Positions 52,501 to 54,457 of a stretch of DNA of 54,545 bases are shown piece by piece. Origin of the DNA: Terriglobia bacterium (GTDB lineage: Bacteria; Acidobacteriota; Terriglobia; Bryobacterales; Bryobacteraceae); assembly GCA_025358575.1 (NCBI GenBank), contig JANYJA010000165.1, forward strand, positions 1 through 54,545, read 5' to 3'. Position 1 is the stretch's first letter; every line of letters begins with the position of its first letter. The position numbers and the translations under genes are program-made. The notes under the pieces were generated by a model that was not told the origin of the DNA, ran no database searches, and was given only the letters and a program-made list of their open reading frames with translations.

Positions 52501-52801
52501 CCGCCACCTGCAACTGCAATCCCGCGCGGCGCATCGTCCGAAATCCCGGCTTCGACGCCTCAATCACGTATCCCCCCGGAAGCAGCGCGAGAAAATGATA
52601 ATCGCCCGTCGTACCGGTTTCCGCGCTATACATTGCATGCGTCGCTCTCTGTTCCAGGGTCACGCCAACTCCAGCAATGTTCAGTCCAGACGCGTCTTTG
52701 ATCGTGCCGTAAAGCTCCGCGTGTCCCGATTGCCCACACGCCCACACGGCCGTCAATAGCCCCACCCAAATGATTCGTGATATGTATTGTAAACAAGACA
52801 T
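49550..52801 (-). CDS. Oar-like TonB-dependent receptor
   Basis: This is a 1,083-residue outer-membrane receptor. The ATG at 52801 gives a signal peptide (SRIIWVGLLTAVWACG); an in-frame TTG ten codons upstream overlaps the divergent gene and is rejected. A carboxypeptidase-regulatory-like domain (AELYGTIKDASGLNIAGVGV, TGDYHFLALLPGGY) is followed by a plug (FPLDGRNFVPLIALSPGV, EYGRSNGGIIQVSTKAG) and a large barrel ending in an aromatic residue (VEMAVKIRF). Many such receptors in Acidobacteria import glycans or bulky nutrients. It diverges from an XRE/PBP-like regulator, and a large dyad covers its start codon. Confidence 0.92.
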   Translation of the reverse strand: MSCLQYISRIIWVGLLTAVWACGQSGHAELYGTIKDASGLNIAGVGVTLEQRATHAMYSAETGTTGDYHFLALLPGGYVIEASKPGFRTMRRAGLQLQVADRISLDLLMEVGESGQTVEVNGAAPVLQTSTGTVSFLIDQEKVITFPLDGRNFVPLIALSPGVMLPPGQLLPRINGSRPRTSEYLYDGISVLQPEPGQVAYYPVIDAIDEFRVQLNSYSAEYGRSNGGIIQVSTKAGTDAYHGTLFEFFRNEALNARNLFATTGPKPLFRRNQFGFVLGGPIQNEKLFFFVDWQQTPLRTGVTRFSTVPTSLQRRGIFSVPIFDPATTVLTSAGYSRSAFVDNTIPSSRFDAAGLAVLNRYPPPNVFTAAGAEAIANNFRRTGADATGAAQFDTRLDRYFLEKHRIFSRYSFLRDDSSPTTPLPDGSGDITTGITGNRLTRADSVVAEHAWTISAASVNQLRFGFTRRGSNQTALQTGKSAGAPPTFQPAGFQQIGPPGSANSRLTTSVTEFIEEFSTIRGRHSLKVGADIRLERLDVLQPANPSGLFQFSPVLTCGLSSSGSPRVNTGNSIASLLLGEVQNFSADAQPAVLKPRATITEGFLQDDWKIAPRLTVNAGVRYTLNFPSVEANNRGAVFDLKTQELNFLGQNGYPRTARNLEKRNFAPRVGVAYALTPTFAVRGGYGLTWIEQAGITTPFTTPLFPYIQTRSQQSLDNINPAFLLSSGPTVRIPPISANAGLGQGVFATQRNNGSGYAQQWNVTLQKAFGKNWSVEAGYLGSKITRLGVPDVNLNQLTVEQLTLGSKLTQPVGNPFYGQIPVTSPLGRKTIPYQQLLRPYPRFTTVALYRNNIGHSTYHALQTHLEKRFADGLTLTAAYTFSKLIDDAGAVFDSALLTGPVSNFQAADSFNKPLEKDESTGSIPQVFAAGFDYEIPFAHGWRIAGIARAQAGAPVAVTQSTNFNAAFGFGIQRPNRVGDPNLPHGDRTTGRYFNTAAFGVAPQFTIGTSSRNPVRGPGYEAADLMIGKIFRVREKWTMEFRLEAFNISNTPPLGAPNGSFGSAAFGTITTALDPRVVEMAVKIRF

Positions 52802-52819
52802 TGTCTTGTAAGTAATACA
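52783..52819. promoter_or_regulatory. 37-bp two-tier inverted repeat (putative operator)
   Basis: The inner arms are ACAAGAC (52793-52799) and GTCTTGT (52803-52809) around ATT. The outer arms are TGTATT (52783-52788) and AATACA (52814-52819). The four-base gaps between inner and outer arms are equal on both sides, so one axis at 52801 serves both. It covers the start codon of the TonB receptor and ends five bases before the regulator start at 52825. It is a strong candidate for autoregulated, divergent control by that regulator. Confidence 0.65.
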
Positions 52820-52824
52820 CCAGT

Positions 52825-53919
52825 ATGCCAAACCGTATTGAAAACAATCTCCCCGCCTTGCGTGCCAGTCGCGGCATCTCGGCCGTCACTCTGGCGGAGC
52901 AAGCCGGCGTCAGCCGTCAAACCATTTACGCCATGGAAGCTGGGCATTACATCCCGAACACCCTTGTAGCGTTGCGCTTGGCCCGTGCGCTCGATGTGAA
53001 GGTGGAAGATCTTTTTCAGATCGAGGTCTCGGCTAGCGTTCCCGCAAAGCTGGAATCCGTCGAAATGCTCCCCGGCCTCAGCGCTCGCGGCCAGCCTGTG
53101 CGCCTGTGTCGCGTGGGCAAACGCGTGATTGGCATTCCATCCGCAATGACTCTGAATTACTTTCCCCCGGTGGATGGAACTCTTGTCGGCGCATCCAAGG
53201 TCGAACTCCTCCATGACATCGGCGGCCCGCACCGCCTGCTCATCGCCGGATGCGACCCGGCGCTCTCCGTGTTCACGCGTCATCTGCAAAACTCCGGAAC
53301 CGATCTGGTCCTTGCTAACTGCGCCAGTTCGCAAGCCCTGCGATTGCTCAAGCGCGGACGCGTTCACGTCGCCGGATCACACCTGCGCGATGAAAAGACT
53401 GGAGAATCGAATTTGCCGGCAGTGCGCAAACTTTTTCCCAAGCGTGCCGTCACTGTCGTGACTTTCGCAAGTTTCGAAGAAGGTCTAGTGTTCGCGAAAT
53501 CAAACGCAAAATCGATCCGCGGCGTCGCCGATCTTGCGCGCAAAGGCATGCGCATCGTGAATCGGGAGCGGGGTTCCGGCAGCCGTCTCTTGCTCGACAA
53601 TCAGCTTCAGCGTCTCGGCATTCCGGCGTCTCAAGTGAAAGGCTATGACCGTATCGCGGCGGGACATCTCGCCGCCGCGTGGCAAGTCCATTCGGGATTG
53701 GTGGATTGCTGCATCGCCACTCAAGCTGCCGCCCGCGCGTTCGGCCTCGGATTTCTGTCGCTTCTCATCGAGCGTTACGACCTGGTAATCCGGAGAGAAT
53801 TTACAGAACTTCCGGCTGTCCAGCAAATGCTCGATCTATTGCAGCGTGCGTCCCTACGCAGGGAACTCGACGCCCTCAACGGTTACGACACGTCCGCTAC
53901 CGGCGCCACACTACTTTAA
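52825..53919 (+). CDS. XRE-type regulator with PBP-like ligand domain
   Basis: This is a 364-residue one-component regulator. Residues 8-65 form a Cro/cI helix-turn-helix (LRASRGISAVTLAEQAGVSR, IYAMEAGHYIPNT). Residues 90-340 resemble the periplasmic-binding-protein-like fold (PF12727) of molybdate-type sensors (HRLLIAGCDPALSVFTRHLQ, HVAGSHLRDEKTGE, RIVNRERGSGSRLLLDNQL, FGLGFLSLLIERYDLVI). Such proteins often respond to an oxyanion or small metabolite. No Shine-Dalgarno site precedes the ATG. It probably controls itself and the divergent receptor through the dyad between them. The ligand is unknown. Confidence 0.88.
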   Translation: MPNRIENNLPALRASRGISAVTLAEQAGVSRQTIYAMEAGHYIPNTLVALRLARALDVKVEDLFQIEVSASVPAKLESVEMLPGLSARGQPVRLCRVGKRVIGIPSAMTLNYFPPVDGTLVGASKVELLHDIGGPHRLLIAGCDPALSVFTRHLQNSGTDLVLANCASSQALRLLKRGRVHVAGSHLRDEKTGESNLPAVRKLFPKRAVTVVTFASFEEGLVFAKSNAKSIRGVADLARKGMRIVNRERGSGSRLLLDNQLQRLGIPASQVKGYDRIAAGHLAAAWQVHSGLVDCCIATQAAARAFGLGFLSLLIERYDLVIRREFTELPAVQQMLDLLQRASLRRELDALNGYDTSATGATLL

Positions 53920-54457
53920 AAACCAGCAATCCCGCCGCTACCGCCATCCCGATTAACGCCTGATATTCCTGGTTTTTCCAATAAAGCGCGGTTCGAAACC
54001 GCGCTTGACCCGCGGCCCGCGAAAACCGCGGCCACAGCGCTGGAACACCTTCCGCGTATTCCGTATAGCCCGGGAAAATCGTCCGCAGATGTTGTTCTTC
54101 CAATTCAATCACCGGTAAGTACACCAGCAAAAATACCAGCGCGAACAAGATCCCTAATACCCAGCTCCGCGCTGCCAACACAAATCCAAACGCCACCACC
54201 AGAGTTCCGATGTAGAGCGGATTACGCGTATATGCGTACGGGCCGGACGTCGCTAAATCTCTGTTTTTTGCCAAGTAGCCCGCCGCCCACGCGCGCAACG
54301 CTAACCCCGTGAACGCGATCGGAAGTCCCATCGCCAGCGACGTTACGCTCGGCCGCGAAAACCACGCGAACGCCGCCAGCAGCAAGAATCCGAACGGCAC
54401 TCGCATCCGCGCCGCTGCATCCGCATAAGGTTTTGGAAACCAATACCGCCGAGTCAC
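53897..54457 (-). CDS. Isoprenylcysteine carboxyl methyltransferase-like membrane protein
   Basis: This 186-residue protein has about four membrane segments. LATSGPYAYTRNPLYIGTLV and the following VIELEEQHLRTIFPGYTEYA are the SAM-binding signatures of the ICMT/PEMT (NnrU-like) family, which methylates lipids, thiols or carboxylates at membranes. It begins with GTG overlapping the stop of the gene before it (GTGA) and its 3' end overlaps the regulator by 23 bases. Substrate unknown. Confidence 0.85.
   Translation of the reverse strand: MTRRYWFPKPYADAAARMRVPFGFLLLAAFAWFSRPSVTSLAMGLPIAFTGLALRAWAAGYLAKNRDLATSGPYAYTRNPLYIGTLVVAFGFVLAARSWVLGILFALVFLLVYLPVIELEEQHLRTIFPGYTEYAEGVPALWPRFSRAAGQARFRTALYWKNQEYQALIGMAVAAGLLVFKVVWRR

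Follow-up and report, generated by a model that had tools for sequence, protein, structure and literature searches.

Proteins of the Desulfovibrio TaoR family reportedly regulate tungstoenzyme genes together with molybdate and tungstate transport genes and are said to be linked to molybdenum (Mo) enzymes; TaoR itself, in the 2019 work of Rajeev, is said to activate aor and to repress tupABC. The DNA-binding domain of TaoR-type proteins is termed excisionase-like. According to the accessible part of one source, TaoR joins a helix-turn-helix (HTH) to a PBP-like domain and TaoR-like proteins are assigned HTH_17, and the same text describes ModE as a repressor of modABCD and an activator of the moa operon (PMC11980592). 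PF12727 forms the C-terminal domain of one Desulfovibrio MoeA, as given in the available portion of another report (PMC10102598). At the outer membrane, the accessible text of PMC8602904 places OprC, which serves copper, under the control of CueR and gives IcmP as the outer-membrane partner of Mo in Pseudomonas, without calling it a TonB receptor. We found no TonB-dependent receptor for molybdate or tungstate in the literature searched, mostly papers outside subscription, and this is therefore weak evidence of absence.

Here we describe a locus at which an Oar-type TonB-dependent receptor gene stands divergent from a gene for a regulator that joins an XRE-type HTH to a PBP_like domain. It lies in the window, by which we mean the whole 54,545-nucleotide stretch of a Terriglobia bacterium (Acidobacteriota) that was analysed. 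Our reading as a whole, to which we give a probability of roughly 0.7, is that the protein would be a repressor responsive to Mo or tungsten (W), whose paired operators would lie over the receptor promoter and start codon and serve co-repression and autorepression.

Results

The two genes and the elements at their starts are listed in Table 1. The regulator combines a Cro/C1-type HTH, matched over cut-off by HTH_3 (PF01381, E 1.1e-11), with a C-terminal match to PF12727 (E 1.5e-60), and its residues 125-361 align, below the cut-off of that model, with the C-terminus (positions 406-642) of the MoeA-fusion model NF011068. HTH_17 is not among the 10 families listed for the protein, and neither the ModE N-terminal model TIGR00637 nor TOBE domains are among its matches. 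All 17 C-terminal halves that were aligned, the window's included, matched PF12727 and 7 of them matched SBP_bac_11, a model also matched by the ModA-type neighbours of the family; weak matches were to LysR_substrate (10/17) and to a phosphonate-binding model (5/17). AlphaFold2 prediction from the window regulator plus one relative was unusable (pLDDT 35.7), and a PDB profile search gave only weak 35-residue matches, to PEB3. Both features of an XRE regulator, the HTH and a short (18-bp) palindromic operator, are present at the locus, and the protein presumably binds that site.

Table 1. Features at the receptor-regulator locus of the window.
Feature	Position	Strand	Description
Oar-type TonB-dependent receptor, 1083 aa	49550..52801	-	CarboxypepD_reg domain and OMP_b-brl_4 barrel
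Putative operator copy 1	52783..52800	.	18-bp near-palindrome TGTATTGTAAACAAGACA; start-codon-proximal seen from the receptor; matrix score 23.8 (receptor orientation)
Inferred receptor start codon ATG (MSCLQYISR...)	52799..52801	-	From sequence; on the dyad axis; first in-frame ATG at doublet position 18
Putative operator copy 2	52802..52819	.	18-bp near-palindrome TGTCTTGTAAGTAATACA; upstream copy seen from the receptor; matrix score 19.1
Regulator, 364 aa	52825..53919	+	N-terminal XRE helix-turn-helix (PF01381), C-terminal PBP_like (PF12727)

Of 237 genomes from the family to which the window belongs, 171 carry a homologue of the regulator; in a sample of 396 from the whole phylum, 12 do. 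A search of genome contigs with one protein returned a single relative, in Nitrospira (41% identity), for which horizontal transfer is a possible origin; neither a receptor nor a Mo gene nor an operator was found near it. Two neighbouring reading frames may be recorded here. In the window a PEMT/ICMT-like methyltransferase ORF (53897-54457) converges on the regulator and overlaps its end by 23 bp, and the Nitrospira homologue (L102:4965-6158) lies about 0.75 kb from an ORF that by eye resembles a phage-type integrase.

The receptor shows the Oar-type combination of a beta-barrel with an N-terminal carboxypeptidase-regulatory-like domain, with matches over cut-off to PF25183 (7.5e-196), PF13620 (4.9e-13) and PF00593 (7e-8), and its match to the plug domain PF07715 stays below cut-off (E 0.097). 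To our knowledge the substrates of Oar-type receptors are mostly unknown.

The start of the receptor gene is covered by a 37-base dyad (52783-52819, TGTATTGTAAACAAGACA-T-TGTCTTGTAAGTAATACA) whose 18-nt arms are complementary at 14 of 18 positions about a 1-nt axis at 52801. A preliminary description of the locus had presented it as a two-tier dyad, with 7-bp inner and 6-bp outer arms on a shared axis and equal 4-base gaps, in a layout unlikely by chance. Counting position by position outward from the axis gave 8 matches, 4 mismatches and 6 matches, which bears out the axis, the gaps and the outer arms and lengthens the inner arms to 8 bp. The judgement on chance holds for the tiers, a pattern seen in none of 100 simulated windows (dinucleotide Markov model), but not for the bare symmetry, as an odd dyad with 14/18 symmetry is expected 0.31 times per window of the same composition and is thus not very rare. 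As had been claimed, the dyad lies over the inferred receptor ATG, which starts on the axis, and ends shortly before the regulator ATG at 52825, 5 nt past the dyad end. Each 18-bp arm is itself near-palindromic, and the two arms, 19 bp start-to-start, can also be read as direct repeats. The spaced pattern TGT-N12-ACA-N-TGT-N12-ACA occurs at one place only in the own 4.77-Mb genome and is present in 3 of the 61 genomes searched, the own genome included: in the window, just upstream of a regulator homologue in G039, and in G036, where it is GC-rich and looks like a chance occurrence. The dyad is real, a point settled by the recurrence of the pair of 18-bp sites in held-out homologous promoters.

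That recurrence was measured with a palindromic 18-column matrix, for which the window's pair of copies served as seed and 27 upstream regions of 24 loci as training set (the window and the neighbourhoods of 23 homologous regulators that were fetched). The held-out set consisted of 100 further regulator neighbourhoods, hand-picked mostly from the top of the match list, 92 from the window's family and 8 from elsewhere in the phylum. A receptor region was retained only if its tblastn match began in the first 30 residues and within 4.6 kb, giving 65 held-out receptor promoters from 64 loci (L195 is counted twice, both times against 19 bp), and mononucleotide shuffles served as nulls for matrix scores and spacing. 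The best matrix match lay above the 99% null in 63 of the 65 promoters, and in 50 of them the spacing of the best two non-overlapping matches was exactly 19 bp, against 2.4% of shuffles with 19 or 20 bp counted; in the other 15 of the 65 the best two matches lacked this spacing. As read from these promoters, what is conserved is two 18-bp palindromes in tandem, 19 bp apart, predicted operators with the consensus TGTCnTGTwwACAnGACA, and the sites are almost certainly those of the divergent XRE-PBP_like regulator. As had been proposed, this looks like one element that receptor and regulator have in common and that the regulator binds. Receptors of 26-28% identity to the window's were found at 11 loci (L045, L052, L105, L107, L118, L119, L131, L134, L162, L196 and L202), and the best pair is spaced by 19 bp at 10 of these, the exception being L119, so that distinct receptor lineages seem to be under the same control.

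A different account would keep the 37-bp dyad as a hierarchical unit, in which inner and outer half-sites on a common axis bind a single higher-order complex. The geometry does exist in the window, and the low-scoring region of L050 also has perfect inner arms around the start codon. To compare copies across loci we used 76 doublets chosen by 19-bp spacing and a summed score of at least 18, which are uninformative on spacing because they were selected for it; the divergent region L047 is counted twice among them, and the regions of L038, L041, L050 and L191 fall outside the set. Inner and outer arms were both perfect in 1 of the 76, the window alone, with outer arms perfect in 5 and inner arms in 1, and the two copies were about equally alike when read as direct (mean 9.07/18) or as inverted repeats (mean 9.30/18). 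Single copies moreover stand at MOT1-divergent and some modA-divergent promoters. With both arm pairs perfect in one doublet and the copies equally alike in either sense, the nested dyad was rejected as the conserved unit, and we hold the hierarchical account to be very unlikely. The two-tier look of the window arises because strong halves of two tandem palindrome copies happen to face each other, and each outer arm is just the outer half of one of the two 18-bp palindromes, not an additional half-site. Homologous gene pairs lacking the dyad had been named beforehand as grounds for refutation, and they count against the literal dyad but not against the operator pair. The proposal that outer half-sites let two dimers bind survives in part: two dimers are likely because two complete operators are present, whereas outer arms as separate half-sites fall away.

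The paired sites, which we read as operators of the regulator, lie close to the start of the receptor gene in most of these doublets. With the start called as the first in-frame ATG if any, and otherwise as GTG or TTG, the first acceptable in-frame receptor start fell inside the downstream copy in 41 of the 76 doublets and at positions 37-60 in a further 29, which puts it within or just past the downstream copy in 70; the other 6 had it elsewhere. In receptor orientation an extended -10-like TGnTAnnnT lay in the upstream copy of 24 of 61 pairs versus the downstream copy of 2, the pairs being taken by the rule applied to the held-out promoters and training and held-out loci being mixed in this count; the window's own upstream copy is without it, and a sigma-70 scan of the window gave no match. 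These start and -10-like positions would suit a repressor lying across the promoter, the transcription start and the start codon, as well as receptor transcripts that are leaderless or have a very short leader. Leaderless transcripts, which the preliminary description had raised, are accordingly plausible, whereas a block at the level of translation start, raised with them, seems unlikely for a DNA-binding XRE protein, for which a promoter block would be simpler.

We consider repression, autorepression included, to be highly likely. The regulator might instead be a metal-responsive activator, or activator and repressor at once, at the receptor promoter. TaoR, which is reported to activate aor and to repress tupABC, would be a precedent. 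So would ModE, which represses modABCD and activates the moa operon in the accessible text of PMC11980592. Against activation stands the position of the operators, which overlap the start codon in many cases and, in 24 of the 61 pairs, a -10-like element as well. Such a placement normally excludes polymerase, and we regard an activator, alone or in a dual role, as unlikely. The inverted repeat could also act in RNA, as a hairpin or terminator at the start of the transcript, in that it spans the receptor start. No terminator-like site was found in the window, and in relatives the palindrome pair with its 1-nt spacer has only moderate mutual complementarity (mean 9.3/18); on these two grounds an RNA structure is disfavoured and seems to us scarcely credible.

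Oar-type receptors are numerous in the own genome (90 match pieces, by eye amounting to some dozens of genes), and the putative operators were compared with paralogous promoters. Of 30 loci returned, the scan covered 26, the window's among them, in which the match extends to the receptor start. The window receptor promoter scored 23.8 and 19.1 at 19 bp and the best scores of the other 25 were at most 10.7; one of these had the 19-bp spacing, but with negligible scores of 4.2 and 0.5. None of these 25 paralogous promoters carries a strong operator pair; the operator therefore tracks the regulator and not receptors generally.

The motif was also found in front of regulators divergent from Mo transport genes. 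Where the partner is modABC, at held-out loci of a second family in the phylum (L184-L186), it scored 16.1-19.2, and at the MOT1-divergent regulators L037, L044 and L046, which belong to the training set, it is present as a single copy with scores of 19.7-22.1. Fifteen loci, two from the training set, have a divergent modA but lack a receptor doublet; in a count by eye the best score exceeded 11.8 in 12 of these and the best pair was at 19 bp in 7. Many regulators without a receptor lack a strong upstream site.

Two wider regulons were tried and rejected. Genome-wide in the own genome, the degenerate operator with up to 3 mismatches gave 11 matches per strand against 14 for the reversed-pattern control, and the four matches inspected outside the window's two sites all lay inside ORFs. 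For modA, none of 18 distal modA-type regions in regulator-bearing genomes reached the 99% null of 12.0 (highest 11.7), and in genomes without a detected regulator 1 of 20 regions (19 modA, one MOT1) was above the 99% null. This region, upstream of modA in G036 (L093, G036:C215:26500-27440), carries a strong single operator scoring 17.2 in a genome with no detected regulator homologue, perhaps because of an assembly gap or a diverged regulator. Upstream of modA in the own genome (L064), where the available sequence is at most about 300 bp long, there is no site. At L064:123-2421 this modA-like ORF overlaps an ATG-started ORF resembling what we take to be the exonuclease VII large subunit.

The regulator family is linked to Mo genes, a point absent from the preliminary description and added here. 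The Mo gene calls come from tblastn searches (1e-8) whose reference proteins belong to the training loci; six of the 48 Mo-linked loci consequently matched themselves. Within about 4.8 kb of the regulator, 124 loci, which are related and do not count as independent events, held a Mo gene in 48 cases, an Oar-type receptor in 83, both in 24 and neither in 17. The Mo genes were modA (31), Oxidored_molyb (21), modBC (14) and MOT1 (3), and 39 of the 100 held-out loci were Mo-linked. Domain searches with representatives confirmed ModA-type proteins (PF13531), ModBC-type transporter parts, MOT1 (PF16983) and Oxidored_molyb (PF00174) as neighbours, which also include one large molybdopterin oxidoreductase. 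With 55 modA matches across the 61 genomes, roughly one in each, we estimate its chance presence in a 10-kb stretch at well under 1%, and at least 28 changes of the Mo label on a 121-row regulator tree mean that the linkage recurs across the family. Linkage to the receptor is weak when taken alone because Oar-type receptors are abundant; at 68 of the 83 receptor loci, 23 of them Mo-linked, identity to the window's receptor is 45% or higher. Of seven regulator loci from the other family sampled in the phylum (L183-L189), modA accompanies four and the remaining three have neither a Mo gene nor a receptor. At L039, L041, L145, L153, L173, L178 and others, an Oxidored_molyb ORF of about 160 aa lies between receptor and regulator with all three co-directional; this small protein is possibly a part of periplasmic Mo handling.

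In the window itself no Mo reference protein had a tblastn match, the contig ending 626 bp past the regulator with that side unseen. The ModE model TIGR00637 was over cut-off in none of the 61 genomes. This absence is soft: 6 of them, the own genome not included, gave weak matches below the cut-off, and among 14 control genomes no more than 2 exceeded it.

The same regulator and operators might answer to some other small molecule sensed by the PBP fold, with the receptor moving a different cargo in or out. In favour of this, the name of PF12727 points only to the PBP superfamily, family members also match LysR_substrate and phosphonate-binding models weakly, 76 of the 124 loci, the window's among them, have no Mo gene within the fetched flank, and Myxococcus Oar, in the accessible part of one report, is needed for protease secretion (PMC6434023). 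This is countered by the recurrent linkage to modA, modBC, MOT1 and Oxidored_molyb, and by the company PF12727 keeps elsewhere, being also fused to MoeA (available portion of PMC10102598), with TaoR likewise carrying a PBP-like domain (available portion of PMC11980592). We find a different ligand or cargo rather doubtful and consider Mo or W to be the probable ligand. That the receptor imports a Mo/W species, for which co-location and shared operators argue, we would rate as an even bet.

Discussion

From these data we infer how binding, repression, ligand and receptor substrate may be connected. Two dimers of the divergent XRE-PBP_like regulator would bind the two tandem operators, and as 19 bp corresponds to about 1.8 helical turns, they would sit as neighbours on nearby faces of the helix, where cooperative binding is plausible. 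Once molybdate, tungstate or some related Mo/W species fills its PBP_like domain, the regulator would occupy both operators and occlude the receptor promoter, transcription start and start codon together with its own promoter. When the metal becomes scarce the regulator would be released, and the receptor would be made and import a Mo/W compound.

If this is correct, the locus would offer a candidate sensor of Mo/W status where no clear ModE was found, and a candidate route by which scarce Mo/W oxyanions, or chelates, could cross the outer membrane. The conserved operator pair sets one receptor lineage apart and ties it to Mo genes, which would also provide a testable cargo. One may speculate, with confidence a little short of even, that in this lineage ModE has been replaced by a widespread XRE-PBP_like sensor controlling TonB-driven uptake of Mo/W, perhaps as a metallophore complex, through Oar-type receptors.

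Among described systems, TaoR is alike in joining a DNA-binding domain to a PBP-like domain, here PF12727, and in its genomic linkage to molybdate/tungstate transport and Mo enzymes, which here applies to 48 of 124 family loci and not to the window's own. It differs in its DNA-binding domain, HTH_17 there and XRE-type HTH_3 here, and in that the gene most often found beside the regulator here encodes a TonB-dependent receptor of the Oar type, with paired 18-bp operators. ModE resembles the regulator in its presumed molybdate-responsive control of molybdate uptake, whereas the regulator described here is without ModE or TOBE domain matches. The MoeA proteins with C-terminal PF12727 (DVU0951 type) share that same domain, but there it belongs to a cofactor-synthesis enzyme and here it is joined to a DNA-binding domain. 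MnoT (manganese) and OprC (copper) are, in the accessible text of PMC8602904, outer-membrane receptors induced when their own metal is scarce, as would be the case here, yet neither serves molybdate and the receptor here is of the Oar/PF25183 type. What would be new is that a TaoR- or ModE-like role appears to fall to an XRE-PBP_like protein whose paired operators lie at the gene of an Oar-type receptor.
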